NCBI GenBank assembly: GCA_034620365.1
Contig: JAQGEQ010000048.1
Location: 1,550,001 to 1,614,000 of the forward strand
DNA length: 64,000 bases
Direction of reading: 5' to 3'
Source: Pegea sp. RAD2-039
Lineage: Eukaryota; Chordata; Thaliacea; Salpida; Salpidae
Below are positions 3 to 42,469 of the stretch, one piece after another. How positions within the stretch are numbered: position 1 is the first letter of the stretch; each line of letters starts with the position of its first letter. The notes under the pieces are model-generated. The model did not search any database and was not told where the DNA came from. It saw only the letters and a list, made by a program, of their open reading frames with translations. Both the position numbers and the translations under genes were made by a program.

Positions 3-3000
3 TGTGAAGATGAAATGGTTGCGGATATCATTTTGGTCTTGGATTCAGTTTCAATAAATACAAATAATTCAAATACGATATTTGATACCGCACTACAAAT
101 TATTCGTAGTATTGATAAAGAAGACAATGAAGATATTAAAGTTGCACTTGTACTTCATACTGATGGAGAAGAACCGAAATATTTCACTTCAACAGAAGAT
201 GTAAGACTTGAGGATGTAATTTGGAAAACAAAACACGAAGGAAGACCAACTAATGAAACTTCTAGCTTAGCAGATATTTCACCAACACTTGATCATCTTC
301 AGCGTGAACCAATTCTTCCTAGAAGCTATGTGCCAGCAAGTAAAGTCATTATTGTACTGACAGATCGTGAGCTAGATGCAAGCACCAGCTCACCTTTAAA
401 GACTAACTTGAAAGAGTTAGAAAACGAAAACATAACATCAATAATAGCTGGTCCAAATGCTCTCGACATTATTGAACCAAATACTCAGTCACCGTACATT
501 AGTGGTTTGAAAATAGAAAAATCATATGGACCAAAGAAAGTTATAAGTAAAGCTAAGACAATACTGAACTTGGCTTGTAAGGCGCCAAAACGCCCATTAA
601 TAGAAGATGTTTGTGAGGCTGAAGTTGAAGTAGCATTTATCGTTGATGGAGAGCTGTCAAGTGGTTACTCTCAGATGCAAGAAGTAAAAGCATTTATGAA
701 GAAAATCTCAGCAAAGATGAGCTTCAAAACTCCTCGCACAGTGTTTAGCACGGCTGATTTCAGCTTTGAAAAAGCAAAATACAAATTGAGTAAATTAGAA
801 TCGTATGAAGAAAATTTCCCTGGAATGGAAGCCTTGGCAAACGTCGCTGAATTATTTAATCAGTCTACCAAAGTTGCTCGTCGTGTGGCTGTTATCCTAT
901 CTAAGACTCCATCAGATGCTGAAAATATACAACAGATTCGTCAATCATTAATTGATTTGCGGGTTAAAGTAATATCTGTTACCATTGGAATAAATTATTT
1001 CTTGCCAAAGTTTGAAGATCAGTTGGATTATAAAGAAATTCATGTGACGTCCAATGACGAATTGTCAGCTATTGTTGCTGGAGTAGTTTCCTTGGCATGT
1101 GAGCCAACGCCAGTAGTTGATGAGCCTGAGAAACAGGACAACATAGTATGTGCAGCCGGACAAATGACCTTCCTGTACGATGTATCGCTCTTTAGTCCAA
1201 TGAGAGATGGACGTAAAGTGAACAGATTCCTAAAAAGATTGATGAAATTGGTTGGATACGGAAGTACACATACGCGTGCAACTCATTTTGAGGGTGTTGT
1301 GTTTGGAAGGGATACTAAAAATGAGTTTTCAGCAGACACTAATGACCTTATAGAAGTAACAAAAATATACGAAGAAATAGATACAATGACACATAATGTT
1401 GTTCCATATAACTTACCATTTGCTGGCAAAGCCTTAAACTATGCAGTTTCGCAATCTCTTCCCGAAGTAACTGGACAAGAAACAAACTTTATTATACTTT
1501 TAATTGGGCGCGATAGTTATGATAATTTGACCGAATCTGTTGCTAGGGCTAAGCAAGCTGGTGTATCAGTGATTACTTTTTACATTGGTGGCTTAGAATT
1601 TAAAAATCCTGATGCTCTTTCAACTATAGATTACGGCTCAATTAAAGTTGAACGATTGTATGATCTAGAAAACCTTGAATATGAAGTGTTAGAATTAATA
1701 TGTTCAACTCAACCGACTACAACTGCACCTCCGACTACCACTGTTCCTCTACCAGAACCAACAATGCCTTGTAAAGTCGATTTGTTTCTGTTAGTTGATG
1801 ACTTTTACATGCAAAACCCTCGATCAAGAAGAGCTATAAAGACTTTCTTAATGGAGTTTGGAAAATCTTTACTGATTAGCCCAGAACAAACCAATGTTGC
1901 ATTAGCTATTATGGGCAAGAGAACTAAAGTTATCAATCAAAAGATGATGAAAAACAAAAGAGCTTACCAGAAAACAGTTAATCGTGCAGTAGTTTCAAGA
2001 ACCGTAACTGGACCACTTAAGTTTACTTCAAGTTTATCTTCAGCTGTTAAATACTTGGATAATTATGGAAGAGATGATAGTAATGATGTCCAGCGTTTAG
2101 TATTTATTATAACAAAACGTAGACCTAAGAGAAATCTACTGAAACCAAGAAAGCTGGAAAACTATAAAATTACTGGTATTAATGTAGCTTCAGTAGTATC
2201 AGATGATGCAAGCTTTCTACAAGAAGATGTACTTACAAATTTTGGTCAAGTTATCAATGCCAAAAGGTAAGCATTCTTTTTGACGTAATCAAAGTAATAA
2301 AAAAAATTAAAGTAATTAAATTGTTGCCTTAGTAGTTGATGCTTATCAACTGGCGGACATAATATTCTCTTAGAAACTGAATAAATTTTCTAACAATAAA
2401 TTGTTTTGCAGAACGCCCCACTTGCCTTATTTTGCTAAGTCAGCAGCTTCAGTTATTTGGGAGCCTATTTGTGAATACACATCTAAGCCAAGCATACTAA
2501 TACCTCCGACCTTGCCTCCAAGTGTACCACCTTTTCCACCTGAAAAATATTTTTGTTCAGAGCCAATGGATATTGTATTCTTGGTTGATAGAAGAGAAAT
2601 GGTAAAGCAAAAAACTGTAGATCCAATTAAAGCTTTTATCCGAGAAATTGTTCAACAAATGGATGTGAAGGTTATAAAAACATTTTATATTACCTATTGA
2701 TACAGTATCTACTAAAATATTACCTATTTTTGCTGCTTATAGAACGTTTAAATTAATTTGTTTGTTAATCTTTTACAGCCAAGCAAAACTCGATTTGCTG
2801 TCATTGAGTTCGGATCTGCCCCTTTAACTCTTGTTGGACTGCAACAATCTAGTAACGCAGTAGAAGCTAGGGAATTTATTGAAAATATTCAGAAGCAATC
2901 TAGACCAGCAGAAAAAAAAGTTTTTATGGTGCCTGCTCTAAATTTAATTACTGAGACTATTCTGCTTGGAGAGGGAGTAAGATCTGTTGGAACCAAGGCT

Positions 3001-3190
3001 GTCATAATAATATCAGACAAAGAATCAGACGACCTATCTATAATAAAGAAAGAAATGTTAGAAGATATGGAAACAGAATTTGAAATAGATGTTTTTGAAG
3101 TGCATCAAAACGAGTTAACTAGTGAAAAAGCTGAGGAAGTGGGTGAAAAACTATGTGGACCAATTACAACAACACCATCATACACCACAG
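3..3190 (+). repeat. vWA block A1-A5, first copy of an intragenic duplication
   Basis: Five Cys-bracketed vWA domains start at about 3, 612, 1149, 1770 and 2554. The first four lie in one large exon and A5 is split over two. The exon layout (a large exon ending in phase 2, then about 255 bp ending in phase 0, then about 410 bp ending in phase 1) is the same as at 5761-9030. A3 here and A9 there share strings such as FLKR and ITFYIGG, and the A5/A11 split falls before the same PSKTRF motif. Confidence 0.85.
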
Positions 3191-6100
3191 GTATAAACCA
3201 AATTATCTAAAAAATGATTTCGCTATAAATAACATTACAACTAGTTCTCATTGTATACTTATTAAAATTCTATAGTGTTTGTTTTGAAAGAATCTCAATA
3301 CGCTTACTTTGATCTATCGAAGCAAAAAGTTATTTCAGTTTGTGTAAACTTTTATTAAGGTGTGTAGTTTTAATTTCATTAAAAAAACTGCTATTTTGAA
3401 GGGGTTAATCAACGAAGGCCAGAATTTGATACAACAACAACTGCAGAAACAACACCTGGAACAGGTGTATCAACTGAACCAACACCTGGAACAGAAACTC
3501 CAACCACTAAAGAACCATTTGAATCAACTAAATCAACACCTGGAACAGATACTCCATCCACTAAAGAACCACGTGTATCAACTGAACCAACACCTGGAAC
3601 AGATACTCCAGCCACTAAGGGACCATTTGAATCAACTGAACCAACACCTGGAACAGATACTCCAGCCACTAAAGAACCAGTTGAATCAACTGAACCAACA
3701 CCTGGAACAGATACTCCATCCACTGAGGAACCAGTTAAATCAACTGAACCAACACCTGGAACAGATACTTCATCCACTAAGGAACCATTTGAATCAACTA
3801 AATCAACACCTGGAACAGATACTCCAGCCACTAAAGAACCACGTGTATCAACTGAACCAACACCTGGAACAGATACTCCATCCACTAAGGAACCATTAAA
3901 ATCAACTAAATCAACACCTGGAACAGATACTCCATCCACTAAAGAAACAGGTGTATCAACTGAACCAACACCTGGAACAGATACTCCATCCACTAAGGAA
4001 CCAGTTGAATCAACTGAACCAACACCTGGAACAGATACTTCATCTACTAAGGAACCATTTGAATCAACTAAATCAACACCTGGAACAGATACTCCAGCCA
4101 CTAAAGAACCACGTGTATCAACTGAACCAACACCTGGAACAGATACTCCATCCACTAAGGAGCCAGTTGAATCAACTGAACCAACACCTGGAACAGATAC
4201 TCCATCCACTAAGGAACCAGTTGAATCAACTGAACCAACACCTGGAACAGATACTCCATCCACTAAGGAACCATTAGAATCAACTAAATCAACACCTGGA
4301 ACAGATACTCCAGCCACTAAAGAACCACGTGTATCAACTGAACCAACACCTGGAACAGATACTCCATCCACTAAGGAGCCAGTTGAATCAACTGAACCAA
4401 CACCTGGAACAGATACTCCATCCACTAAAGAACCAGGTGTATCAACTGAACCAACACCTGGAACAGATACTCCAACCACTAAAGAACCAGGTGTATCAAC
4501 TGAACCAACACCTGGAACAGATACTCCATCCACTAAAGAACCAGACCTATCAACTGAACCAACACCTGGAACAGATACGCCAGCCACTAAAGAACCAGAC
4601 CTATCAACTGAACCAACACCTGGAACAGATACTCCATCCACTAAAGAACCAGTCCTATCAACTGAACCAACACCTGGAACAGAAACTACTTCTAGCCCTA
4701 CCACCACAATAGCAACTACAACTCCCATTCCCTTGTGTTCGATTCCATCAGAACTTTTATTTGTCATTGATGAAGAATTCTTTTTCCAAGAACCTATTGT
4801 TAGTACTCACGAAGCTATATCAATGTTCGTTGAAGCAGCACTAAATGGTTTAGAAGTTTCTGATTCTGCTGTACAAGTGAGTTAGTGTCGTGTTTTGTAA
4901 TACAACGACTGTAGTATTTTTGTAGAAGTGTTATGTATGATAAAAAAATACTTATGCCAATTAATGGATATCTCATATTTAAATTAATATCGCAGTTGTT
5001 TGCTTGTTTAGCAGTATTTGCATCATCAAACTAATGAATAGTCTGTTCAACACTAATTCACTACCTGTTTAAAGTTTACCAAATTTTGTAATCTACATTT
5101 AGCAGATTAACTGCAAGACTGTTCTTTTAGGTATCCATCTATAGTGCTGGACGAAATACTCTTCAACAACTCGTTAAATTCACCCCTTATTATACTACTT
5201 CACAAACAATTCTAAGAGATTTTGAACAAGCAATGGATCGTTTTAGCAAACGCGATAAGCTAAAGCTTGGCGATATCAACTCTACAAGAATTATGAATCT
5301 CGCAATAGAATCTCTAAGCTCAAATAGAGATTTAAAGCAATCGATTGTAGTAAGTGCTTCTTCCTATTTTCTTATTAATAATTTTTCTAAGAATAAAGTG
5401 TTTAATTTTGCTTTTTAATACTAGAAAGCAAAGAATTCAAACTTACATGAATTTTGTTTATTTAAAATTGAATGTTGAACAATTCACTAAAGGCATTAAA
5501 CTCATTTTCAGCTTTTGACTCTACGCAAAATTCTTCCGGTGAGCAATGACATCATTCGTACGTTGTATGATGACGACATTATTGTATCTGTATTTGCTGA
5601 CGATGACGTCTCTGCTGGATCAACAGCTCGTACACTTGCTTCTAATCCAAAGCTATATGTACCGGTACTTGGTAGAGCAGAACTTGCAGACAACGGCAAA
5701 CTCGCAATTAGAACAGTTTGTGAGAACATACCTTTACAACCACCAACAGTTTCACTTCCATGTAGAGAAGATTTACGAACAGATATAGTTTTTCTCATTG
5801 ATCGTGTCTCTTACCTTTTAAACACGACAGACAGTGTAATTGATCTTGCCCTACAACTAACTCGAGTGTTGAATGTAGATAATAACCAGATCCGTGTAGT
5901 GACCGTGTTCCATTCAGACTCTAAAGATCCACATGTTCACGTACCCACTGCTGATGTAACTTTAGAAGATGTATTATGGGAAGAAAAACGGCATGCTGAA
6001 GAACTAGATGGTGATGGGCTAATCACAAAAACAGTTGATTTTACATCTACCTTAAGATTTATGAGAAAAGATCCGCTGTTCAGTCGACGGTTTGATGCTT

Positions 6101-9100
6101 ACTCAAAAATATTTGTAGGAATTTCTGGAAGACCAATTGAATCGAATAACTCAACCAGAGAATACTTGAAAGTTTTTGACGAAGAGGATTATGTTACAAT
6201 TTTTGCAGCACCAAATAGCGATGACTTACTCTCGAGTGAGCTACCTCGTTTAAATAGTATACCGTTTAAAGGAGCAGCAACTCCGAAAGAAGTTTTTGAT
6301 GGAACAAATAAAATTATTGACATAGTTTGCCAAACTCCACAAAATCCTGTATCTGAGAGTATTTGTGAAGCACAAGTAGAAGTAATATTTGCTGTTGATG
6401 GCTTGATTTTTAACAATCAAAAGTACCGGAAAGACTTGCAGAATTTCTTCAAAGAGACTTCTATTCTTTTTGGCTTTGATTCTGCACGACCTGTAGTGCT
6501 AGTTGGAATAAGTAATGTAAAACTTGGCTCAACATATGAGATTGAAGAGTTTGCAAATGATGAAGATAAGTTTCCTCTTAGTGTGATACTTAATAAAACA
6601 GCAAACATGTTTGTAGAAGATTCAACTACTACCCGAAAGGTGATAGTGGTAGTCTCAATGCGTCAGGCTAACTCAATAGATCTAAAGGAAACAAGAAACT
6701 ATTTGTCATCCCAAAATATATCTTTGATCGCATTATCAATTAACAACGAATATTTCATGCCTTCTTTCGATGATAATTTGAACGTTAAAACAATTAAAGT
6801 GTTTGAAGATGCAATTTTGCCGAAGGTTGCTTCCTCAGTTGTAATACATGCTTGTTCCCCGTACACCCCACCGTCCCCACTACCTCGTGTCAATCCTGAT
6901 GATAGGCGTATATCTTGTCCTGCAGGAGAAATTACCTTCTTGTATGACATCGCCTTGTTCAGTCCACCGCGTGATGGAAGGAAGATCACCTCCTTTTTGA
7001 AGCGAATTATTGATCTTGTTGGTGATGGAAGTGTTTACGCTAGAGCAACAAGGTTTAATGGGCGAAGCTTTGGTGCTACATCAGCTGAAGAGTTTTCTGT
7101 AGAGACCAAAAATCTACTAAAAGTTGCTGATACTAAGCATTATCTCGAAAAGATGGATCATGACGGGATTGAACGAGTCTCACCAGCTAATGCCGGTCAA
7201 GCATTGAAAGATACAGTAAATGCCTTAGAGTCTCACCAAGACACACAATATGTACTTCTCATGATTGGTCGTAACAGTTTTGATGATTTGGAAAGAGCTG
7301 TTCAGTATGCCGAGAAAAATAACATTAAAGTCATTACTTTCTACATCGGTGGTCTAAAGTTTAAACCTAATCAGCAAATGTCAACTGTAGAAAACGGTGA
7401 AATTATTGCACAGCGTCTTTATGATCTGATTAATCTTGAATATGAGCTTATTGAGTTGTTATGTGATACACAACCTGCAACACTTCCCCCAGATCCTCCT
7501 ACTATTAATCCAACTTTTATCCCGCCGACAATGGATTGTAAGCTAGATATAGTACTTGCTATTGACGACGCATTGTTACATTATTCGAAACGATTACAGC
7601 ACTTGCGCTTGTTTTTCAAAATTTGGATTCCTTCTCTGTATTATGGCGAAGATCAGGTGATGATTTCTGCTTTTAGATTTGGCAAAAAGGCTAGATATCT
7701 CTTTAAAGGCTTTATGGATAATGAATCAGATCTGAAAACAGCGCTTGTAAAAAGACTTAAGCCGAAAACGGCAACTGGGCCATTTTCATTTACTGTTGGA
7801 GCAAACCGGGCTATGAAGACTCTTAAAGGTTCTAGAAGAGCAGGTACAGATGTCAAAAAGCTGATCATCTTTATCGCTGCGAGAGGAAGCAAGTCAGCAC
7901 TATCTCCATCCAAGCTTTCTCAGTTAACAGAAAACAATATTTTGGTAACAAGTGTTGTAATGATGAATGCAGCTAAACTACTACCAGAACAATTAAGCAA
8001 TTTCAACAGTGTCCTTAATGTAGGAAGGTAAGATACTATTTGTATGTTATTAGAGTCAAAGATTCAGTGTTATATTGAAATATTTTCTTAAACGTTGTTA
8101 GTGAAAAACTTTGTATACTAATTTAACTAGAATCATTTAATACTTGAAAGTAGGTTATGTTTTCAATTAAAGTTATTTAACAAAATGCATTAATAATAAT
8201 ATTCAAGTTTATTAAAATTCAAATCTTTCAAATTTTAATTTTAGAGTTAGCAGTTTACCCTACTATGCAAGACAACTGACTTCAGTGGCATGGATAGATG
8301 TTTGTGATGAAGTATTGCCTGTGGTTCCAACTATTGTTATACCAACTGAAAAGCCAGATATTATAGTCAAACAATTTTGCTCGGTATCTTTGGACGTAAT
8401 AGTTCTAATAGATGAACGAATTCTTGCAGAACAATATAAGCGCAATAAGATAATAGCATTCTTGAAAGAAGTATTAGTTGCTATTGATATCGAGGTAAGT
8501 TATCAAAAATTAAAGACACTTATGATAATTAACTCAAATTGTATGTCTACATTTTATAAGATAATAAAATATAACTCATAGTAATTCTCACCTGAATTCC
8601 TATTATTCTTATAATTTACAGCCGAGCAAAACAAGATTTGATGTTGTGCAATACAACACAGCTCCACAAATTCTTTTAGAGTTTCATGAAAGTTCTAACT
8701 CAGGAGAAGCTATTGAAAACCTTGAATCAATACAAGTATCCACTGCATCTGCTGAGAGCAGCACACTTTTACATCCAACCATTAATCTTGTAATTGAAAC
8801 AATGATTATGGGCAGTGAAAGTAGAAAAGATGTGCGAAAATCAGTTTTGATTTTCTATGATGAGCAGCCTGATGACTACAACCAGCCTTTGTTTGACTCA
8901 TTGGACTCAGTTAGGGATCTACATGTCCCAATTTTATTCTTTGATAGTCAAGCTTTGACAGAAGAAAACGTAAATACAACACGTGAAGTCTTATGTAACC
9001 TTGCAATTGAGCCTACTCCTGCTCCTACTAGTAAGTTTACCAAAATGAAATTTTGAAAATAAATTATGTAAATATAACTCAGTAGACGAACATACTGAAT

Positions 9101-12100
9101 AAAATTCACTTTTTCAGCAGCAACAACCCCTGTTAAGTATACTACCTTACCAACAACTACAAAGCCATTAGAAGATCAGTGTGAAGAGATCAAAGATGTT
9201 TTATTCCTAATTGATGTAGCTGGTATTAGTGAGAATAACTTAAATCTGTTAAAAGACTATCTGATTGATATATCACGTGAAATACCTTTGAATGGCAAAG
9301 AAAACCAGGTCACTTGAGTTTATATAAATATAACTTTTGTAAAATATAAATAGAAATTTAACTAACAATACGATTAAAAATATTATTTATTATCTTTACT
9401 GGTATGATTATTAAACAATTTAAAGTTTTGAATAAATTACAATTTTTAGGTCAACAATGTTTCAATTTCTTCTAAAACTGATCTTAATATTAAATAAACT
9501 GATCAACAACCATTGAATAGAACCGATTACCAAAAATTTTATTTAAGTTTTAATCAAAGCTATTTACTTCAAATTTGTCTTCAAAACTGCTATGCAAGAC
9601 AGTAATTATACCATTGTGATAAAAATCACAACGAAACTGTTTTACGAACGTAATTTGACATTATCTCTTCTAAAGATTGGAGTAATTCCTTACGCATCTA
9701 CTCCATTACCTGGAAGTCTATTTAACTCTACTGATCTTGATGACGTAATAGAAGCAATAAAAAATCTAAAAGCAAAGGAACCGTCAAGGCTAAATACAGG
9801 AAGAGCAATAGTTTATGCCTTAAAACAGTTTAACCTGCTTGGACGTAAAAATGCTGGATGGTATCTTTTCCTTATCACTGACGGCAGAGCAAAGGTTAAT
9901 TTAATTGAGCTTCTTAAATAAAGTAATAATAGTTATTATAAATATTTAATTAAGATTATAACTAATAGAGTGTTGGGTGTTAGAAATGTATAGTTAAATT
10001 TAACAAATCAGTAAAAATGTAAATCTCAAAACTTTTGTTATTTTTGATTTTAAGGATAACTTGACTCAAGCAATTAATGACCTTGATGAGACTAAGTCAA
10101 GTCACTTCTGTGGCTTTAAAGTTGGAGCCTTAGGAATTGGTGCAGCAAACGATACTGAACTCGAAAAATTTACTTCAAATGTAACGACTATTGACAATCA
10201 TGATAAACTGAATAATACTAAAAATAGTACTGAGGATTTTATTAAAGATAGATATAAAGTTCGTCCAACAAGACCATTAACAAGTGAGAATTGCTATTTC
10301 ATTATTATATTAAATTAATTATAAAACGATAATTTAACGCAGCAACTGCTCCTGGAAAAGTGAAAATAACAACTTCACCAATTGGCACTCAGCCTTGTGA
10401 ATGTAGATGGACAGGTAACTTTTTAACAACCTAACAAGAAAGTTAATTGCAAATTTTTAAATATTTCACTAAGAATAAACTTAAATCACTTTCCTTATTT
10501 CACACTAAATTAATTTCAATGGAACTTTAGGGTGGAGAAACTCTGACTCGCCTAGTAAGAATTCGATGGGCGATTACGAACTATGGGCAGATAGTACTTT
10601 AGATTATGATGGAATGTGTGATGATGGATTTACTGCTTACGACATTGAATGCAGAGTAAGAAAAAACTGTTTCTTATTTTCAAATAATAAGCTTTCTATA
10701 TAGTTTGGCGACAATTTTTTTATGATATAAACAACATTTAAGTTTTAAAACAAAAAGCTTTTTAATGATTGAACTTAAACTCTACACTATTGAATGCTTA
10801 GATAACTAAGTTATTAATCAAAGTAAATTAACGATATTTGTAAAACACTGAAATGTAAGAGATCTGTTCAGACTAAAATCGAATTTACTCACTTCATATG
10901 TGAACGTTACACTTTTTTGTATTGTTAGAGTGACAGAGGAATCATGCAGGACAATGTTATCTGTAGTTACTTTGTTCCGTTGATGTGTGACCATCTTTCA
11001 GTTCCCCTAAGACAAGGTCCGTGGTGTTATGATTACAGTGCGAGGGTTAAATGTTGCAGCCCTGGCTGTGGTAGTCCACCAACTTTACCTACTTTTACAA
11101 CTACTGCTCCAGGTAAAACGCAGCAACCTGAATTAAAACGATTTAATAAAAAGCATCAACTCATACTTAAATATTTCAGTTGAATATACTGTTTGTAATT
11201 GTCATATCGTATACGACCTCATCACTATTGTCGACACTGCGACTGATTCTGAGCTTGAGCTGAGACAGATGGCTGCATTTGCATATAAACTTCAACGTGA
11301 TATGAAAGTTGGTAAAAACTGTTCTCGAGGAAGTCTTGTCACATACGATAGCGAAGGAGCTGAGGTTACAGCTTTTAAAACAACATTAAGGATGCTTTTT
11401 ATCAACACTTGCATTATAAAATAGGTTGTTGTAGAGCTAAGTGATGATTTAGTGTCAATAGATCAAGCTCTTAATCAATTGAGGCCAAGTCCTCCAGAAG
11501 ACAGTGATGTTTCAAAAGCCTTGAAAGTAGTCAAAGAAAATCTTGTTCGAAAAGTTCGACATATTACTGATGACGGACGAGAAGTGGACCAGGTATGTTT
11601 TATTATGAATATCAAACTTTCTATCAGCTGAAGCTTAACACCATTCCAACTTATAAAGGCTATTGTTGTAATATCCAATTCATACACCACTGGAATGGTT
11701 GAAGACTTAGTTGATGACTTGTTCATAAATCATGACTTCAAGATCGCTGCTGTTGGAATAAACAATGCAAGAAAGAATCTCTTGAATAGAATGTCAACAT
11801 TTGGCGAAGATGGAGTATTTAAACCGGACCCTCTTGACTTGCAAGAAACAGCTCAAAATGTATCAGACCTTTACTGCAAGCCAAGTGAGTCAATTACAAC
11901 TAGTTTAAATGAGCTAAGATTTCTCTTATGCTAGCTTTTAAATTAAACTTTTAAATTCAAAGTTATGTTAGTCAGAGCTGCAAAACCAGAGTATGTTATA
12001 AATTTCAATTCCTAGACTAAAGTAAAAAATGTTTTAATCTTTAAAACAACTTGGAATTTCTATCCAATGTCTGTTTAAAACATGCAAATAACAAGTTAAT

Positions 12101-15100
12101 ATTATTATTATAACTGACGTCGCGTCTTATGAATCTTATTTTTTACAACAGAACCAACAACAACTTCTCAACCTGATACTTTATCAACAACATCTGCAAG
12201 CACACCAACTACCACAAAAGCAACTTCGGAACCAACGACTTTAATTTCAACAACTACTACAAGTCAACCTACAACTCTACCAGAAAGATATTGCGAATTT
12301 TTCAATGAAACAACTTCAAAAACAACAGTAAGAAAATAGTTTAAAATCTGGTTAAAAATATCATTTGCAAACTTTTTTTTGTATTTATTCTACATTCTAA
12401 CTTAAGAAATTTATTTTAACAAATAAATGTTACAAGGCTGCTCAAATAATTCGAACATATTTAAAATAAACATTTATCCATTTTTCAATTTATGCAATAT
12501 TTTTTTTAGATCTTAGAGCCATATCAGATAGTTTATCCTGATCCAGACAACAGATGCAAGTATTTTGAATGTGAAGAAAACGGAGCTATTCGCTTCCAAA
12601 ATAAACGAGTTTTATGTGAGAAGAAAAATAAACCGCAATGTGAGAATGGATTTAAGGCTGTTCTTTATCTTGATGAAGAGTGTAATTGTCAATGGGAGTG
12701 CCAATGTAAGCAATACTTTTTTTTTTTAACTCTGATATTTTAACGTTTTTAATGATTATTTGAACTTTTTGTAAAAACATTTCCTGGTAATGTTTTACTT
12801 CACAGCTTCTGATTACCATTTTTATAAACAATGAACAAGTATATGTATGAAAATTCAAAAATGCTTTATTCAAACTTTGATGAAAACCTCCAAACTTACA
12901 AGATTATTGTTTATACGTAGGCTACTGTGTGTTGGGAGGTGATTCAGCTTTCCATACATTTGATGGAACATATTACTCACTTCCACCTCCAATCAGCGGG
13001 GAATGCGGTGAAAGAATCTTATCAAAATCAATTCCTCAAATAGATCGTTCACAATATACAATAACATATAAGGCGGAACCATGTGAAAATGACCATAAGT
13101 CTTCTTGTATTGTTAGTCTCACGCTTGAAACCAGAAATAGAACTTATATCTTAGGAAAAAATCTGACCGTGAGTTTTTTTTCAATTAGTACGATATGCAA
13201 GAGATTAAAAAAGAAGTTAACAAATTTTGTTTGTTAATTTCGATTAAAAAATAACTAATATTATATTTATATATATTATATTTCATTATTTTTTTAAGTA
13301 TAACTTGAATAGATAAATTTCAGCTTGAAACTGACATTTTTCTATTTCAGGTTACTGTTGATACAACTGTAGTGGAACTTCCTTATGGTGAAGGAGTAGG
13401 TAGCTCAGAGATGAGTATAACGAAAGTTGGTGGCATATCTCTGTACTTGCGTGCTTATAAAATTGGACTTGAGTTAGAATTTAACCCATACGATCACTTG
13501 ATTACAACTTCACTACCAGCATATCTGTGGGATAGTAGAGTTGAGGGTTTGTGTGGTACGTTATCAAATAAATTGAAAGTAGTGTAAGCAGGAATAAGTT
13601 TCAACTATCTAATTTTATTGTCGTTAAGGTGATTGTAATCGAGATAAAGATGATGAAATGAAACTACAAAATGGAACTCTAGCACCAAGTCCTGCAGCAC
13701 TTGTCCAGGACTGGCTTACTATCGAGGTATATTTCTAGAAATTGTTATCTTACAGGATCAGTTATTCATAAAACTACTTTTCTAAGTTAAAGTAGAGTTG
13801 AAAGTTATTTGCAAATAATCTTTGTAATATTTCATACTAATTTTGAAAAATTATCTAAGGACAAATCTGTCTGTGACGATATTTCTGAAAAACCAAAAAT
13901 ATGTGAAGATAATTACGATAAGCAATGTGAAGAAATTTTGAATAATCCAAATTTTGAGAACTGCAGAAACGTAGTTGGCTACGGTTAGTTTATTTGTTCA
14001 TTATGATATAATAAAAAACAGAGACAACAATTGTTTGCTTGTACAGAAAAATATTTTCAAGCTTGTCAAGTAGATACCTGCAACGGTACGCACAGTGCCT
14101 GCAATTCGATTGCTTCTTTCGCAGAAGCGTGTAAGCATGCTGGAGAATGTATTGACTGGAGATCATATGAATGCGGTTTGTAATACTAACTTTGCTAAAA
14201 TCTGAAGTATAAGTTTCACTTTTTGTTTATAGCACTAGAATGTGAAGAAGGAAAATTGTATGAAGCTTGTCGAAGTCAACCATTTGAGAGAACTTGTAGT
14301 AACCTTCTAGACAATCGATTTTCAAACGAAAAGGCAGAAGGATGTTTTGTTAATTGTGAGCTCGGTGAAGTTGTTATCGATGGAAAATGCATGGACGAAA
14401 CTTTCTGTCAGATGTGCTTTGATGAAAAAACTGGAACTTACCGTGAAGTAAATTAGTTTCTAATCAAAACTACAACTAAGTACGAGTAGTTAAAAATTAA
14501 AAATGTAAACTATCAACAGCCGAGTGATACATGGGTTGATAGTGACGACAAGTGTATCATATACACATGCAATGCAAGGACATTAGCAATACAAGAAACT
14601 GATCAGTCTTGTGATGAAATTGAAACTGTGTCATGTGGTGAATGTGAGATATCTACTATAGTTGTTGGATCAAACCCTTGTTGTCCTAAACATGAATGCG
14701 GTAAATATTTTATTTAAACTTTAATTAAAATTTCTTTCTAAGTTCATAAAATCTTTTCTTTTATGTTTATTTGAAAATGTTATTGTTTGTTCAGTTTGTG
14801 ATACAACCTGTCCTGCTATAAGACCACAACATTGCAACGATGGAATGGTAGAACGTCTAAACACAAGTGTCACTGGTTGTAAGCCTGTATACAGCTGTGT
14901 TTGTGATTTATCTCAATGTACTGAGTCGTATATTCAATGTGAAGAGCCATTTGTACCAACAACTATCGCAACTTCTTGTTGTAATGAAAAAAAATGTCAA
15001 TGTCCTAACGAATGTCCTCCAGGATCAGTTAAAGGACTAGATGAAAACTTCAAATGCGACGTGGTTAGTAGCATCAGAATAAATCAAAATAATACTTTTG

Positions 15101-18048
15101 ATTTTAAACTCTATACTCAAATAAAAACTAATAATGAAATTACTCACAGGGTGAAGTTTCGCGTCGACTGGTTGATGCTTGTGGTTGTTCAGAATACTAT
15201 TGTGGTAAGAATTTGAAGTGGAATTCGAAGCTGAAACTAAAACTCTAAACTAACTTTTGGTTAATTCATTATAGAAACGTTGCCTGTTTGTGTCTTCGAG
15301 AACTTGAATAGTAATGATAAATTAGTCAAGTATGAAAACGAAACCTGGATTGATGAAAATGATCCATGCCTAGTTTATGTTTGTAAGAGTCTTAATGGTG
15401 TATTTACAATTGATCAAAAGGATTTAAGCAATGATTGTAAGATTTGTCCGGAAGTAAGTTTATAATTCATGAATGATACTATTGTTACAAAAAGCAAATA
15501 TTCTTGACATATAATAATCTTAGAAACTTTTAAATCTAGAATTTAAATTTGCTTAATATATTTAAGATAGCTTTAGAAGTAATGATTATGTGACACAAGT
15601 CTTAAAATTATCCTTTTTATTATAAATTAGGGCTACGCTGAAGACTTCGAGCCAGGAAAATGTTGCCCAACTTGCATTCTAGAAGATTGTGTTGTGGATA
15701 CTGAATATGGAATTGACTATTACAAAGTAGCTTCAATAATTTAAATTTTTAAATTTGAAATCATGATAAACGCGGAATGCTAAATAAAACAGTACTCAAA
15801 ACACTATAGAAAACAGACACATTACTGTCAATATCTGTATTCTTTAAGATAACAAGTAATTGAGCTGACTTTTTATTAATTTTCACAGATTGGCGATTCA
15901 TGGGTTGATGAGGATCAATGTGGCGAGCATATTTGCGAATTAATCAACTCAAAACCTACTATTGCTTATAAAAAGTTCGATTGCAAAGAAGAAGAAATTG
16001 CTAATTGCTCATTTGGTTATTATAAAGCTTGTGACACAAGTGGTTGCTGTCCAGTATGTAGATGTGGTAAGTTTCATATATAAAATTTATAGTAGGAAAA
16101 TGAAACAATAAAATTTTTAACAAATAAAATCTGGTTTGAATTTTACCTTCAAAGATTTATAAAGAAATCTCTTTAATTTTTAGAACCGGAAGAGATTTGT
16201 TTAATTGGGCCAAACTGGGACAAGTCAATGGTAAACAATTTTATTAATCAACTTTTAACGTATATAAAACATTCTTTTCTTTTAGCTAAGATTATAAAAG
16301 TTTATCTTGATTTTTATTTTATTCAATAAGGAAGCTGTAAAATATACAAATGTAATTTTTTTTTGAAATATCCAATCTGAATGTTTTCATACAGAAACCT
16401 GGCGCCGAATGGTCGCCAGATGCTTGCACAAGCTGCATTTGTACAGAGATAAAGGGCCAAGATGGATTCCATCAAACCGAATGCACAGCTAGCACTTGTC
16501 AAGAATGCCCTGAAGTAAACATCTCTTTTAAACTACAATTTATACAAAATAATTTGCTGGCTAACTAAGATTTTCGATATCTAAATTGAATACTATTTTT
16601 CATCAGGGATTTGCGTCTGAGGAAGTTTCAGGAGAGTGCTGTGGAATTTGCCGTCCAACTCAATGTGAGGTTGTCATAGATGACCACCCTGAGCTTAACA
16701 GTACAATTTTGATGGTATTTTCTCATTATTATTCATTTAATACAATTTTTTACTTAGGTTTTTGATCAGATCTTTTATATACAATTTTTATTATAATTGT
16801 AAACTATTTCAGGGACAAAATTGCTTACAATGTAAAGTGCTCTGAAAATTTACAGTTTTCGCTTAAAAATCAGAATACAATTTTTTTTTGATATTTTACA
16901 CCAACTTACAGAGATAATCTTTCTTACTTTGAAGTATTTGTCAGTTGACAAAGGTTTACACATCAATATCATTATTCAAATTATCACTTTATTTCAGATT
17001 GGAGATAGTATTAGACACAAGTGTGATATTTATGAATGTATGAGCGATAGCAGAGGATTTGCTATCAATTATAGACAAAGAGTTAATTGTCCAGCATTTG
17101 ATAACAGCAAATGCTTCCAACAAGGAGTATGTTGTTACTAAAATATCTCACATTACTAATGATTAATCTTAATGGTTTTTTTATTACATACTTCACGCTA
17201 ATTAAACTGCATTATCTGAAAATAAATTATATTTTATCTAGGGTAAAGTTTCAATGGATCAAGATGGTTGCTGCCGTGAATGTAAGTGAAAACGATAAGT
17301 GAGCGTTCAACATTTTATTATGCTACTTTCCTCGAGTAGGTGTCATTCAGAACAAGCCTTGTGAACTAACCTCTGTAGAGTTGCAACATTATTACTTCGG
17401 CAAATGCTTTACAATCAAACCAATTTCTTTCACCTACTGTAGTGGAGACTGTGGTAGTGGTGCTTATTACCATGAAGAAACAGGCCAACTTATACAACAA
17501 TGTACCTGTTGTAGACCACTTGCTTACCGTAATAAAACGGTTAAAGCTAAATGCTTAGACGATAGCGTAGTAAGTACAGTTTCCATAATAATTAACTTTA
17601 ACACACTAGATTATAAAACAAAGCATTTTATTTTCAGATTGATGTAACTTACAGCATAATTGACTCATGTATATGTAATAGCAATGTGACGTGTACAGAT
17701 AAGTACAGTTCAGGTGTAACATCACAGCCAATATTTAATGGATACGGTCAAGAAGTAGAAGCTAATATACCAACTGGTTTTGAAAGCATTTTTGCAGCCA
17801 AATCAGCGCTAAGTCAATTCTCACAGATATCAATTCCACACTCTGATGAGGTAAAGGCGTAGAATGATTTCAGCCGTATAATCATGTTATCATCTTAATT
17901 ATTAATTTTTTAGAACGAAAATGGCTCAGGTCGATCTAGAACAACAGATGCTTTGCGGCAATGTTTTGATGAAGCTTTGCAAAAGGATAGAGATCAAAGC
18001 AAATCACCAGAGCTTATACTTCAACAATCTTATGTTGATGAAAACTGA
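3..18048 (+). CDS. Giant secreted vWA / gel-forming-mucin-like protein (5' partial)
   Basis: The gene continues upstream: residues before the first in-window Met (15) already read as the Cys-led start of a vWA domain. The 39 exons are 3-2266, 2412-2670, 2779-3190, 3423-4876, 5131-5349, 5512-8027, 8245-8494, 8622-9030, 9118-9308, 9676-9894, 10055-10283, 10343-10414, 10531-10655, 10929-11112, 11180-11364, 11425-11592, 11659-11884, 12152-12327, 12510-12705, 12921-13168, 13351-13555, 13629-13726, 13860-13983, 14047-14175, 14233-14447, 14520-14700, 14795-15063, 15150-15204, 15275-15453, 15631-15726, 15889-16066, 16184-16230, 16395-16514, 16607-16714, 16998-17126, 17242-17281, 17340-17569, 17638-17850, 17914-18048. 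All junctions are GT..AG and phases agree, giving about 4,250 residues. Domain order: 13 vWA (A1-A5, Thr/Pro array, A6-A12, then A13 after WxxW), WxxW 10405-11080, VWD 12921-13726, C8 13860-14175, TIL 14233-14400, VWC-type modules to 17281, cystine knot 17340-17710. By family this is a secreted, disulfide-linked polymer or matrix protein; its tissue role is unknown. Most likely error: exact ends of the smallest exons. Confidence 0.88.
3482..4669 (+). repeat. Coding minisatellite: 22 units of 54 bp (PTS/mucin-type array)
   Basis: Twenty-two units of exactly 54 bp (18 residues) encode a Thr/Ser/Pro/Glu-rich sequence with the core TPGTDTPSTKEP, with partial copies on both sides. Unit length never varies, so the frame is kept from exon start 3423 to donor 4877. 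The frame is fixed by the downstream vWA start (Cys at 4736) and by the phase-1 junction at 3190. The sequence is suited to dense O-glycosylation, as in mucin PTS regions. Unit subtypes repeat in blocks of five, then four, which points to unequal exchange of multi-unit blocks. Confidence 0.95.
5761..9030 (+). repeat. vWA block A7-A11, second copy of the duplication
   Basis: Domains start at about 5761, 6364, 6916, 7537 and 8378, matching A1-A5 one for one in order and spacing. The following introns sit at the same places in the same phases. The copies differ at many residues (roughly 60% identity by eye in A3/A9), so the duplication is old. Domain A6 and the Thr/Pro array lie between the two blocks. 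Confidence 0.85.
9115..9120 (+). promoter_or_regulatory. NAGNAG tandem splice acceptor
   Basis: The acceptor of the exon ending at 9308 reads cagcag. Using the first AG adds one Ala codon relative to the second; both keep the frame after the phase-1 donor at 9031. Such sites often give two isoforms differing by one residue. Confidence 0.6.
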
Positions 18049-18139: not shown

Positions 18140-18145
18140 AATAAA
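18140..18145 (+). terminator. Polyadenylation signal of the mucin-like gene
   Basis: AATAAA lies about 92 bp after the TGA at 18046-18048 and is the first canonical signal downstream. It supports this as the true 3' end of the gene. Confidence 0.6.
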
Positions 18146-32888: not shown

Positions 32889-34421
32889 TCAATTTTCAAC
32901 AGAATCATTGCTTATAGCAAGCTTCTGTTTTGAAGCATCATACATTTTGAGGGAAGTATGAGATCTTGCTCTTAGAAGCAATACAATCGGATGCACAGAA
33001 GTTAAAAGACAGATTATCACAAACGCAATATTAATACTGGTAAAATCTCCATTCAGCGTACGTGTTACAAGAGAATGTAAGGGAAATTGCAGTAAACCAA
33101 CTATACCACCAACAGTCATGTTTACACCATAGAGTTTTCCAAAATATTTACCAGGATAAAAAGTTGCAATGTAGTTAGAATTCCCTCCATAAAGAAAAGA
33201 TCGAAACACTACTTGAAGAACAAATGTAACATATTGAACATAAATGTTTGGTATTACACAAGCAATAGAGAAAGCAACACCAAGACAAGTTGTCAATAAG
33301 CTTGAACACCCTACTGCTTTATATCTTACAATAAGATCACTTTTAATAGTTTTACTGAAGATAGAAGTCAGACGATCGATCAAAAGCCCATTTAGAGGAG
33401 CAGTAAAAATGCCAAAAAGCTGACAAGTACCAAATACATTTAGATAAAAACTTGTTTTACCAGCACCGACTATAGACTCTAGATGGAAGAAAACAGTTGC
33501 AAAATAGAAGTAACAACGAAGTTGTAAGAGACTTAGCTGCACACAGTTGAGCCAGAATGAAACATCACGCAAACATTGCTTAAAATCTTTTGTTTGATTA
33601 TCATTGTCGTCTTCTTCTTTTTCTTCTAATGGAGCTTTTTCTTCAGTAAGCTCATCCAACTGTGTACTTGGTTTTGGGCTTTTATGATTTCGCGTTTTCC
33701 AGTAGTAGAAAAAACCATAATTATAGTTTTTACGTTTAGGCAAAGGAAAAGGAATAAACTTATAAGGCATCAAAAAGAAAGTCCGTATGATTTGAAAAGC
33801 TGTTAGACATGCTATCCCTATAAAAATTGATGATAATGCTACTCCTGAGTCAGACACAAGTTTAATAAGTAAAAATATAAATGAAGAAGAATCTAATGCA
33901 CCATTGAACAAAGTTATTATAGAAGATCTTGCATGCAAAAACAAGTTACCAAGTTGTATGTTAGTGATGAGAAGTATAATGCCACCAACAGCATATAAGC
34001 ACATAGCCACGTACAGTAATTTGGAAGTTGTTGGGGTGGAAACTATCATTAATATACTGGCAATAAGAAACATAAAAGAAGCAATCATTCTGCAAAAGAA
34101 AGTGCCAAAACGATCAAACAAAAAGCCATTTAATATAGTTGAAAAACTGAGCATAGTAGAAGCTACAGCAAAAACAAAATTTAAACTCTCTTGTTGAGTT
34201 GGACATTTAACATCAGCATTACTCAAGTTGCCCAAATGAGAGGTATTTGCTGAACTTGTACTCATATTTGTAGCATTACCAGGATTACTAACAGTTGTGG
34301 CACAAGCAAAATATTCTTCTTTAATAAGAACAGATGATAAGGAAGACCAACCAAAGATTAGCCCAGCACACATCAAACATTCTAGAGCACCACTAATAAT
34401 GCTTAGTATAGGTTTTATCAT
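32889..34421 (-). CDS. SLC43-like major facilitator transporter
   Basis: A single uninterrupted frame of 510 residues. About twelve hydrophobic spans are visible in two halves, separated by a cytosolic loop rich in Glu, Asp and Lys (about residues 230-275). The loop between spans 2 and 3 carries an MFS-type motif, GFLFDRFG. The first extracellular loop has several Asn-glycosylation sites and a KCP motif. The second half (FVLQ.VFRSF, then FYPGKYFG, then GLLQFPL) matches the SLC43 family (LAT3, LAT4, EEG1). In vertebrates these move large neutral amino acids or purine bases at the plasma membrane; the substrate here is not readable. The ATG at 34421 opens directly into span 1, as in the family. 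There are no introns, unlike the intron-rich neighbours. Confidence 0.88.
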   Translation of the reverse strand: MIKPILSIISGALECLMCAGLIFGWSSLSSVLIKEEYFACATTVSNPGNATNMSTSSANTSHLGNLSNADVKCPTQQESLNFVFAVASTMLSFSTILNGFLFDRFGTFFCRMIASFMFLIASILMIVSTPTTSKLLYVAMCLYAVGGIILLITNIQLGNLFLHARSSIITLFNGALDSSSFIFLLIKLVSDSGVALSSIFIGIACLTAFQIIRTFFLMPYKFIPFPLPKRKNYNYGFFYYWKTRNHKSPKPSTQLDELTEEKAPLEEKEEDDNDNQTKDFKQCLRDVSFWLNCVQLSLLQLRCYFYFATVFFHLESIVGAGKTSFYLNVFGTCQLFGIFTAPLNGLLIDRLTSIFSKTIKSDLIVRYKAVGCSSLLTTCLGVAFSIACVIPNIYVQYVTFVLQVVFRSFLYGGNSNYIATFYPGKYFGKLYGVNMTVGGIVGLLQFPLHSLVTRTLNGDFTSINIAFVIICLLTSVHPIVLLLRARSHTSLKMYDASKQKLAISNDSVEN

Positions 34422-36076
34422 AGTGTTCAGTTGATGTAACTTCTAAGAAAAATAATTTATCAAATGTTGAGTTATCTTTTTAAAAATATAGCAAATGTTT
34501 AAAAATCTCTTCACACAATATTATATAACTATTAAAAATATAACCAAATATTTGGTTTCAAGGAAAACAATTCAGTAAATATAGAAAATAACTAAATTAA
34601 TAGATCTACTCAAAGTTTATTAATTAGACTAACTAAATGTTTAATTATGCTTAATAAACAAAATTGAAATATTTGTTAACCAGACAAACAACATTTACTA
34701 TAGATGATATACTGCAAAGTTGAAAACTTACTTACTTAACATTTTTGAGGCTATTTATAAAAGCAAAAACAAATTAATTGACAAAACTTAATTATAAATA
34801 TATAACTTACAAATGCTATCAAATCAATGTAACCTATAATTATAGACTTTAATTCAACAAATTTTATATAAAATCAATGCTTACAATTTCATAAGAAGTT
34901 GCTACAGTAAAATACTGTGTAACTATTTTTGACTAAAAGATTTGTGAAATGAAAAGATTAAAAATCTTAAATTTCAAAAACTGTTGTAAAATCTTATGAG
35001 TTATTTGAAGTAAATTAATATAAATATATCATAAAGACTTCTTATTTTTCAGTTAAATTGAATGTATTTCATGTTGCCTTGTTTTTATAAATTCACATTG
35101 ACAAATCAAAACAAATTACTATTTGCAGAATTACTACTTCTACTACTAATTTTATATTCGGTGAAAACAAAGTGAAAACAAGTTTATAATCAAGCAACTA
35201 CTTGATGAAAGTAAAATGTATACTTAGTTAGTAAGTCAGAATTTCTTAGTAATTTCAGTAACAATTTTAATGAATTAAAAATAGCTATTAATAAAAATAG
35301 GTTATATTTTTAATGTTAAATTTACGTAGTTTGCAAAATTGTGAATTATTGAAAATTTATTAGAATTGTTAAAAATTAAAAATAATTGATTTGAAACGTT
35401 TTGATTTATCCCTTAATATATTATCTACATCTACTATCAGAAAAAATTTAGCACTTTTTACACTAACACCTGTTTATAATTAACGACAACAACCAATGAA
35501 TAAAAAATCTTTTCAGCCGAACTAGATGTGTAGTAATAAAGTACCCACGCCCGCGCAGAGTAAAAAAATGGCTCTAAGCAAGGTTGTATTTAATTGTTTC
35601 TTAAAAGTTGAAAGTTTCTATTTACAAAAAGTCTATTTTCAGATTAATTTTTGTTATTTTTAAAACTAACTAAAAATTTAATCTATTGAATTATTATTTC
35701 CTAGTGTTCATTACATTTTCTATTTATTTTAATAATATAGTTTTTTTTAATGTTTCCAATATTTTTAAAACTACAAGAATTTTACCAAAAAATAACTGAA
35801 TTGATTTGGATCTTGACCATCTTAAGACTTTTGGCATAAAATAACAAACTTAGAAAATTTAATTTATGGACAAATCTATCAATTGGCATTTGGTGGTGCT
35901 TAATATAGGGATAGTTGAACGTCTGAGTCAAAGCTTGCGTTTGAGCTCCTTACAAAAATCAAAAGTAATTTACTTATGTAGTTTTTATTCAGACTATCTA
36001 AAGAATTAGAATGATTTAGATATTAGATTACCTATAATATAAGCAATGACTTAATAACTTCTTGTCAGCTTTGCTG
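34422..36076. other. Intergenic, AT-rich
   Basis: This lies upstream of the SLC43-like gene and would hold its promoter. No motif stands out. A short GC-richer patch near 35.55-35.57 kb has an ATG with five codons before a GT, which is too little to call an exon. Confidence 0.5.
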
Positions 36077-37795: not shown

Positions 37796-39090
37796 TTTTT
37801 TTAAATTGTAAATAATATTCTAAGTCTAAAGTTAGATTAAAAAATGCTCACATAATGTTATTGCAATTAATCTACGTAACTTTCAAAGACTTAAATATAA
37901 TTCTAAAGAATATCAAAAACCTTATCTATTTGTAAGTTTTTCTTTAAAGGTTAAAATAATTTCAAATAGAAAGCAATATAACAAAAATATTAGTTTTTTC
38001 TTATTGAAATGACCAAATTTTAATAAAATGAAAGTTTTCATTTTCTTAATAGTATAAGGACTTTCATATTTAGGTATTTTCATGATAAGTAATTAAGTAT
38101 TTCTTTGTTCAGTTACCAAAGTAATATGATTTTAGAGGCATATAAACAGTTGCATAAGTTACTTATTAAATTAACGTTAAGTTTTTCGACGGTCAATAAT
38201 TAGAAGTAAACAATTAAAAGCCCAAAAAAGTCAATTCACATCTGGCATCTGTAAATCATTACGTAGTAATTAGAGTTGATTTATGTTTATAAATTTTATT
38301 ATTTTATACTTACTGCAGAAGTTTGCTTTATAAGTTTTTATGTAAATTTCGTTTTTGTTTAGTTATCATTTTTATGTTCAAAATATTATAAAGATTAATA
38401 TTTTATTTAAATTGCTAAATATTTGAAAGCAACTTTCTTTACAAAAGTAATTTAAGGTTTTGTAAAAGTTTTTCTTTTTACTAAAGTTTTTGAAAAGTAT
38501 TTTAATGATTATAATGAAAAATAAGCTTTGTTAAGTAAAAAAAATTTTTGAAAAGTCATTTGGTATGTTATTAAATAAATTTTATTCTTTTAATTACTTT
38601 AAATGCTTGAAAGGAAAAATATTTAATTCATTTTAAAGTTTATCTTAATTTGTGTACTTTATTTGAACTTAATTTAAATTTAGCTTGTAAAATTGTTAGC
38701 TATTTTATATGAGTATATGTATTCAAATCAAGGTTGTTAAAATTATCAAAACTAATTCAAACGTTTTTTTTATATCTACTTATGTTTGTTATAACCTGTT
38801 AAGAATTCATGAATTCATTCTAATTATATATTTCAATAAAAAACTAATAGTTGATTGATGTTAAAAATAGTAGATAGATGAATGGGATATATGTCTAAAG
38901 ATAATTTTATTTTAAGTCTTTATTATATTATTTACTGTATGATTTATCATATAATTAAATTTTTTTTTCTATTTAGTATAACTGTTTATATCTATGATAT
39001 ATATATTAATTTAATATTATTAACTATACAAAAAAGAACATATAAAGCATTATTATAAACTTTTTGACATCTGACTATATTTTAGAAGTT
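37796..39090. other. Intergenic, AT-rich; upstream of HBS1L
   Basis: No gene or repeat recognised. The HBS1L promoter should lie at its right end. Composition is extremely AT-rich between 38.3 and 39.05 kb. Confidence 0.5.
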
Positions 39091-42000: not shown

Positions 42001-42469
42001 GACCATGTCATTTGTGATGTCACCAAACCAATTCCAGTTGTTTCGAAGTTTAAAGCGCGGTTTGTGGAATTTAAATTCAAAATAATTTACATAAAAATTG
42101 AATTTTTTTTTAGAATTGTTGTTTTTGACGATACAATCCCAATAACTGAAGGATTTCAATTTGAACTTCATCATAAATCTACAACCACACCAGCCACCAT
42201 TTGTAAGTTGATGGTTCTGTTGGACAAGTTAACTGATGAAGTCATTCAGAAGAGACCTCGAATTTTAAACAAAGTGAGATCTGAGATGATTTCAAAATCA
42301 TTTTTTTCATTATTTTATTTGAAAGGGAGGAAATGCTTTCGTGAAAATCAAACTTTACCAAAAGATCTGTATGGAAGAGTACGACACACTGAAAGATTTG
42401 GGAAGGTTTACGTTGAGATATGGAAGTAGAACTGTCGCTGCTGGAATACTTGTCAAAATAATATCCTAA
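39091..42469 (+). CDS. HBS1L: HBS1L-type translational GTPase
   Basis: Ten exons: 39091-39513, 39572-39685, 40790-40936, 40989-41169, 41219-41396, 41453-41618, 41667-41816, 41866-42059, 42114-42273, 42326-42469. All phases agree and give 618 residues. HBS1L with Pelota (Dom34) dissociates stalled ribosomes in no-go and non-stop decay in the cytosol. The start MSRHRNIRK matches the family start MARHRNVR and is followed by an acidic Asp/Tyr tract. An HBS1 N-terminal domain lies at about residues 55-95. GTPase motifs are complete: GHVDAGKST (about 198), RGVTMD, DAPGH and NKLD. EF-Tu-like domains 2 and 3 follow, ending in LGRFTLRYG and TVAAG. NKLD replaces the commoner NKMD and still fits the NKxD consensus. 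Most introns are 49-58 bp; intron 2 (1.1 kb) holds a LINE relic. Confidence 0.96.
39930..40400 (+). mobile_element. Decayed LINE reverse-transcriptase fragment in HBS1L intron 2
   Basis: Pieces in several plus frames resemble the finger and palm region of non-LTR reverse transcriptases. They are a KGDRN..LNY stretch (about 39992-40020), a FG.....[12 protein letters not shown]-like stretch (about 40105-40165) and FAFDSVSHP (about 40220-40245). It has many stops and frame changes, so it is an old copy. It runs in the same direction as the host gene and does not touch exons. Sequence from 40400 to about 40720 ends in AATAAA-like repeats and may be its 3' UTR, but I cannot show this. Confidence 0.65.

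Follow-up and report, generated by a model that had tools for sequence, protein, structure and literature searches.

Von Willebrand factor (VWF; 2,813 residues) carries three A domains, bracketed by cysteines, between a D1-D2-D'-D3 head and a tail of D4, VWC and cystine-knot (CTCK) domains; it is not known to have N-terminal EGF domains, and it has no proline-, threonine- and serine-rich (PTS) arrays and no CysD (WxxW) domain. The gel-forming mucins MUC2, MUC5AC and MUC5B combine D1-D2-D'-D3, D4, VWC and CTCK with PTS sequence and CysD domains. In the available part of one study, the PTS sequence of mucins and the A domains of VWF are treated as alternative fillings of one scaffold (PMC6109156), the accessible part of another ties VWF to the vertebrate vasculature (PMC9169620), and in the literature, in the portions at hand, the pairing of CysD with PTS is assigned to Deuterostomia. 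Here we describe a gene of the salp Pegea sp. RAD2-039 in which A domains and PTS arrays occupy the same scaffold. The window (the whole stretch of 64,000 nucleotides that was analysed) comprises positions 1550001-1614000 of contig JAQGEQ010000048.1 (C262 below) in an assembly of 105.7 Mb and 387 contigs (GCA_034620365.1), and window positions 3-18048 on the forward strand cover the last quarter, at the 3' end, of a single predicted gene, C262:1497097-1568048, which we refer to as the giant gene.

The predicted start lies approximately 53 kb 5' of the window and the TGA stop codon at C262:1568046-1568048 (window 18046-18048). Applied to the 80 kb 5' of the window, a purpose-written gene finder (codon and intron statistics combined with splice-site weights) yielded a continuous reading, which we then adjusted manually at two A domains and in the head and tail, both rich in cysteine. 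The final model has 138 exons, all with GT-AG junctions, and 48,099 coding bases that specify 16,033 residues, corresponding to a predicted protein of 1.76 MDa before glycosylation with 383 cysteines and 97 N-glycosylation sequons. Introns have a median length of 133 bases and are at most 770 bases long, and the GC content is 37.5% in coding exons, 23.1% in introns and approximately 25% between genes in the window. In order, the protein comprises a putative signal peptide, six EGF-like modules, D1-D2-D'-D3, 57 A domains together with four large PTS arrays, a WxxW domain, D4, VWC-like modules and CTCK; the last A domain follows the WxxW domain and leads through a short Thr-rich linker into D4. 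A preliminary description made from the window had placed the 5' end of the gene beyond its edge and had raised the possibility of further A domains or D1-D3 assemblies upstream. Both are indeed found there, namely 44 more A domains and an EGF-D1-D2-D'-D3 head.

With VWF the giant gene shares the order D1-D2-D'-D3, A domains, D4, VWC and CTCK, the intersubunit cysteines and a basic site between D2 and D', whereas it differs in its length, its N-terminal EGF domains, its 57 rather than three A domains, its PTS arrays and its CysD domain, and in a C8 domain of D3 that is only 39% identical. The gel-forming mucins, together with a mucin gene of the same genome that is described below, have the closest D3 C8 domain and share the head, PTS, CysD and tail, but have PTS sequence where the giant gene has A domains. 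Collagen VI alpha 3, the best PDB profile match of the giant A domains, likewise contains a tandem array of A domains; it forms a collagen triple helix and is not known to have D assemblies, PTS sequence or CysD. Two A domains occur in PTMP1 of the mussel byssus, a small protein not known to have D assemblies or CTCK. The available text on Ci-GFM1 of Ciona presents a non-vertebrate VWF/mucin scaffold that, like the giant gene, has added domains, and that has all five intersubunit cysteines; it differs in being 2,880 residues long, with a PTS stretch of 50 residues, a chitin-binding domain and no A-domain array described there (PMC6109156). The flatworm adhesive protein Mlig-ap2 comes near in size (14,794 residues), is secreted and has VWD and TIL domains and a long repeat array, but its repeats of 255 and 221 residues are not called A domains in the portion of the source at hand, which mentions thrombospondin repeats and does not describe D1-D3 plus CTCK (PMC6410801). 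Among the open-licence papers listed on the subject, consulted mostly as titles and the beginnings of abstracts, we recognised no description of D1-D3 with many A domains, PTS, CysD, D4 and CTCK. Each domain is known, and it is the combination and the scale that we did not find described; this is a weak claim, drawn from the literature rather than from animal protein collections.

At the N-terminus, the sequence MKLLLLMLVCILF resembles a signal peptide, as judged by eye. Six EGF-like modules follow, one per exon when counted by eye; Pfam EGF_2 gives four stretches, and the best EGF model scores 93.8 bits. (For Pfam, the head, the tail and the window frames of the giant gene were scanned in pieces.) VWD, C8 and TIL are each above the Pfam cut-offs in D1, D2 and D'-D3. 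The features that characterise a gel-forming-mucin scaffold, that is, a D1-D2-D'-D3 head and a D4-VWC-CTCK tail, with PTS sequence accompanied by CysD, are all present in the giant gene. Within the window, open frames, sequence and Pfam together bear out the A domains, the PTS array, WxxW, the further A domain, VWD, C8 and the knot in the order that the preliminary description had claimed.

To count the A domains we used an iterative profile derived from the giant protein itself (E<0.01); it gave 58 matches and, after one split domain was joined, 57 domains. Exactly 13 of these lie in the window, the number that had been put forward as a minimum. A block of six domains (a-f) occurs seven times and accounts for 42 of the 57; ten A domains precede its first copy, and the 15 that lie outside the blocks are singles. 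Domains of the same class are on average 36.8% identical across blocks, compared with 14.4% for different classes within a block, and the block domains are bracketed by cysteines. Pfam VWA, which is independent of our profile, is above its cut-off in five of ten open frames of the window (96.4, 53.1, 38.4, 27.4 and 26.8 bits); among the other five, one scores 15.9 bits, below the cut-off, and four have no match. Two further A domains of the window score 59.5 and 47.2 bits once spliced. A genome-wide search, in which 150 of 211 VWA candidates and all 105 VWD candidates were scored, gave at least 22 exon-level VWA matches above the cut-off within the giant gene. Within those candidates, VWD and VWA matches outside the giant gene are never closer than approximately 48 kb (on contig C3). 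Many other VWA loci exist in the genome by the family search, while a protein search with one A domain that bears the metal ion-dependent adhesion site (MIDAS) motif returned ten matches, all within the giant gene. A cluster at C58:265309-414188 represents a separate VWA gene family; its 21 exon matches to VWA lie on both strands, and some of them are evenly spaced at approximately 5.1 kb.

Four large PTS arrays interrupt the A-domain array, and two of them are minisatellites with a 54-bp unit (35.2 and 22.7 copies). PTS sequence makes up a much smaller part of the protein than the A domains do. Note that one A domain (C262:1532119-1532637; L015:2355-2424) contains a Ser-Gly-rich insert of 4.7 copies of a 15-bp unit, which we take to resemble glycosaminoglycan attachment stretches.

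Within the window, where all features of the gene lie on the forward strand, exon 100 (C262:1549754-1552266) is cut by the window edge and occupies 3-2266; it contains A domains b (12-599), c (612-1112) and d (1149-1721) of block 6 and, from 1770, the greater part of e, and Pfam VWA scores 96.4 bits there, with four stretches. Exons 101-102 (2412-3190) hold the end of e and domain f of block 6 (from 2554), according to open frames, the gene model and our profile. The mucin-type Thr/Pro array reported earlier is a PTS region (3402-4735; Thr 30%, Pro 20%) whose 22.7 copies of the 54-bp unit span 3462-4687, and it shares its exon with the start of block 7. This block (exons 103-107; 4736-9030) has its domains a-f beginning at 4736, 5776, 6364, 6916, 7537 and 8378. 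It is followed by a single A domain (from 9180; exons 108-110, 9118-10283; 59.5 bits) and by the one WxxW domain that had been noticed (exons 111-113, 10343-11112), in which the WTGW motif is split by an intron and which scores 35.4 bits for PF13330 (cut-off 22.4) and matches the MUC2 CysD domain with E=1.1e-4. The additional A domain said to follow WxxW is encoded by exons 114-116 (11180-11884; 47.2 bits).

Exon 117 (12152-12327) encodes the short Thr-rich linker and, after it, the first residues of the D4 region. The D4 assembly (12510-14447) consists of an N-terminal cysteine-rich module (exon 118), VWD (12903-13726), C8 (13860-14175) and a TIL-like module (14233-14447). Cysteine-rich modules, approximately five of them VWC-like by their cysteine pattern as judged by eye, fill exons 125-135 (14520-17281), CTCK and the beginning of the tail occupy exons 136-137 (17340-17850), and the last coding exon, at 17914-18048, ends with the stop codon. 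A candidate poly(A) signal, AATAAA, lies approximately 90 bases farther 3' (18140-18145). The D4-to-knot tail of the preliminary description was borne out on spliced exons for VWD (66.8 bits), C8 (47.1 bits) and the knot (PF00007, Cys_knot, 35.6 bits; human VWF CTCK, E=6.7e-7) and is weaker for the other two parts: TIL in D4 has no Pfam match at E<=0.01, its label resting on cysteine spacing and on an alignment with MUC2, and VWC reaches 26.7 bits, just below the cut-off of 27.6, with support from the cysteine pattern. On unspliced tail frames, six of ten pieces had no Pfam match or unrelated weak ones only, besides two VWD halves and the knot, because introns split the domains. A genome search with the D4 region gave one match, which was the region itself, and hence no second copy.

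The A-domain, PTS, WxxW, D4 and cystine-knot parts form one open, correctly spliced reading frame, and we consider it very probable that a single gene has the whole architecture from D1-D3 through the A array, PTS, CysD and D4 to CTCK. Separate genes are unlikely at the D3/A and PTS/A joints because bridging exons are found there: exon C262:1507711-1510010 joins the end of the D3 assembly to the first three A domains, and in exons C262:1534620-1536733 and 1553402-1554876 PTS repeats run on into an A domain. No single exon bridges the joint from the last A domain to the VWD of D4, which is crossed by three short introns (267, 182 and 197 bases) and therefore rests on frame, on spacing and on the layout of a second gene of this genome (C88:250694-262163), in whose model D3 and a D4-CTCK tail likewise belong to one gene. 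This joint is what would favour the idea that two or more genes were read as one, an idea that we regard as very improbable: besides the bridging exons and the C88 layout, the frame and splice phases are continuous, no non-coding gap exceeds 770 bases, and the EGF exons are preceded by a start that resembles a signal peptide by eye.

That the length of the gene was inflated by an error of assembly seems exceedingly unlikely. Such an error would account for two stretches of 2.6 kb, C262:1510000-1512600 and 1515036-1517636 (L013), which are offset by 5,036 bases, each contain two A domains and are 98.7% identical, and also for the 99% identity between domain b of block 1 and that of block 2. However, 55 A domains are left even when the near-identical stretch is set aside, and the seven blocks, when compared over their whole length, share 31-57% identity and are therefore distinct copies, which counts against this explanation. 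(The 2.6-kb pair in itself may be a recent tandem duplication or an assembly duplicate.)

In MUC2, according to the available part of the source, the intersubunit disulfides of D3 involve C1088 and C1130, which align with VWF C1097 and C1142, and VWF C1099 had been taken as an interface residue (PMC6739602). In a direct alignment of the giant protein with VWF (numbering from the PDB chain), all three positions are cysteine, with GGDCECFC in place of GDCACFC and YDCTWHY in place of YECEWRY. Similarly, the knot has QCTCC in place of VWF QCSCC, the cysteines of which presumably form intersubunit bonds. Judged from these alignments, the giant protein retains the cysteines through which chains of VWF and of mucins are cross-linked. 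The junction between D2 and D' reads SNKRRSADC, compared with RSKRSLSC in VWF; it is basic and lacks the Arg fourth before the cut that the strict furin consensus (R-x-K/R-R) includes. According to the accessible part of the source, VWF alone has the furin site when it is compared with MUC2 (PMC9169620).

The C88 gene encodes D1-D2-D'-D3, PTS, D4, VWC-like modules and CTCK, and we found no A-domain match in its model, which is ab initio and free of hand correction, does not reach the real start of the gene and perhaps contains some spurious exons in D4. Over D1-D3, the giant and C88 proteins are 34% identical at 1,231 aligned positions. When the giant D1-D3 (a query of 1,250 residues) was compared with the PDB, VWF scored highest (741 bits, E=1.6e-221), followed by MUC5B (711), MUC5AC (704) and MUC2 (669). 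The preference is divided within the head, D1-D2 constructs favouring VWF over MUC5B (458 vs 362) and D'D3 constructs favouring MUC5AC (355), MUC5B (346) and MUC2 (310) over VWF (284). C88 shows the same split (431 vs 340 in favour of VWF for D1-D2; 350 vs 256 in favour of mucins for D'D3), and for its whole D1-D3 FCGBP comes first (767 bits), then MUC5AC, MUC5B, VWF and MUC2. Because C88, without A domains, also favours VWF in D1-D2, that preference is uninformative on A domains, and the D1-D3 scores were dropped as evidence of VWF orthology. In the C8 region of D3 (approximately 84 residues), the giant protein is 55% identical to C88, 51-55% identical to three human mucins and 39% identical to VWF. 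(A tree of this region, from 11 sequences and approximately 84 columns, had inner supports of 22-65 and three groups near the tips at 95-98, and was used only for the identity table.) The D3 C8 domain being nearer to C88 and the human mucins than to VWF, the reading that we favour is a mucin-type scaffold to which A domains were added in this lineage, most likely, on these sequence comparisons, independently of vertebrate VWF. The earlier term "chimera" should accordingly not be taken to imply descent from VWF.

The alternative is that the giant gene is a true VWF orthologue, with an A-bearing VWF in the bilaterian ancestor that persisted in this lineage and in vertebrates and disappeared from all others. 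We think this quite improbable, although several observations point that way, beginning with the VWF-like order, in which A domains directly follow D3, and the first place of VWF over the whole of D1-D3. A KRR cluster stands exactly at the position of VWF propeptide cleavage, where C88 has no basic cluster, but the strict furin consensus is not matched. The block A domains are bracketed by cysteines as in VWF, and a Rossmann-type A-domain fold, with VWF A1 as the nearest fold, is predicted for the one A domain modelled; yet one MIDAS-bearing A domain matches collagen VI and integrins, and VWF is absent from the matches listed (60 of 82). (Single-exon A domains, 26 of the 57 in alignment A1 and 15 of these in A2, were the input to the profile, to the PDB profile search and to the fold prediction.) For the knot, VWF is the best PDB match, although the PDB list may contain few mucin knots, whereas for the D4 region the eight PDB matches are mucins and FCGBP, without VWF, the best being MUC2 (95.9 bits) in an alignment that runs from VWD through TIL. 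Also against orthology are the C8 identities in D3, with a small tree that has no supported VWF grouping, the D'D3 scores in favour of mucins, and the lack of specificity of the D1-D2 tilt, which C88 shares. We likewise give little probability to a view in which the VWF architecture, basic site after D2 included, did not originate with the vertebrates, an invertebrate carries it in giant form together with PTS and CysD, and a VWF/mucin ancestor may have had both A domains and PTS, later divided between the two families. The giant gene is well suited to testing whether the VWF layout had one origin or two.

Two observations concern related loci. Just after the CTCK of the C88 mucin (L017/L018, C88:247368-262163) there is an open frame of 1,079 residues with SGSGDSFSTTPEAPVVTTTTPVKTTTEEE repeats and a WxxW domain (81 bits), so that CysD stands next to PTS at least twice in this genome. 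In addition, the VWD/C8 loci of C40 and C57, and those of C3 and C5, form pairs with near-identical scores and spacing that look like uncollapsed haplotypes. Elsewhere in the assembly, searches with COX1 and with the arthropod cuticle family PF00379 gave no match, the second in a run whose controls were likewise silent, so that it does not establish absence.

As for the product, we think it reasonably likely that the giant gene encodes a secreted, disulfide-polymerised adhesive or mechanical glycoprotein on a mucin-type scaffold. This proposal starts from observations on gene structure, domain order and conserved cysteines, and on the A-domain fold of one modelled domain; multimerisation, glycosylation, tissue and use we infer by analogy. 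By analogy with VWF and mucins, chains would pair through the cystine knot in the endoplasmic reticulum, and D1-D2 would then align D3 domains such that intersubunit disulfides form; we regard a disulfide multimer as probable. The product would be a very long, disulfide-linked and highly glycosylated secreted polymer in which O-glycosylated PTS arrays would be stiff and A domains would act as ligand-binding or mechanically extensible beads. Its likeliest use would be as an adhesive or cohesive secretion, such as a glue of the foot or pedal gland, attachment material or mucus, and an adhesive rather than a mucus role is a tentative suggestion. If made at full length, a chain of approximately 1.76 MDa would bear on the limits of protein size and on bio-inspired materials, and the giant protein may be an underwater adhesive or a mechanical polymer of unusual size.

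Several points weigh against this proposal. The D-x-S/T-x-S motif of MIDAS is kept in five of the 57 A domains, two of the five being a near-identical pair, and most A domains therefore cannot bind ligand through the classical MIDAS metal; many may be spacers. (Many true A domains, for example VWF A1, are also without MIDAS.) The CGLC motif is kept in D2 and D3, and D1 has GGLC instead. The gene model is ab initio, hand-corrected, trained partly on itself and derived from genomic sequence alone, and some exons could be alternative or missed. Moreover, the adhesive role is argued by analogy only. The loss of MIDAS from most A domains is in keeping with a gel-forming mucin of the gut or body surface, with A domains as spacers and no adhesive role, as are a scaffold, PTS and CysD that are those of gel-forming mucins and the large size of the PTS arrays. 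We nevertheless regard a plain mucin as somewhat unlikely, in view of an A-domain part that far exceeds the PTS part and of a mucin with the same scaffold already present at C88, in addition to further D3-bearing loci.

Other genes in the window lie 3' of the giant gene. An open frame of 517 residues on the reverse strand (32892-34442) matches MFS_1 with 66.2 bits and is probably part of a transporter gene. Also on the reverse strand, a frame of 260 residues at 44125-44904 looks by eye like the end of a reverse transcriptase and has no Pfam match at E<=0.01. On the forward strand, at 39046-42426, matches to HBS1_N, GTP_EFTU and the eEF1A C-terminal domain occur in that order, indicating a gene for an HBS1-like translation GTPase.
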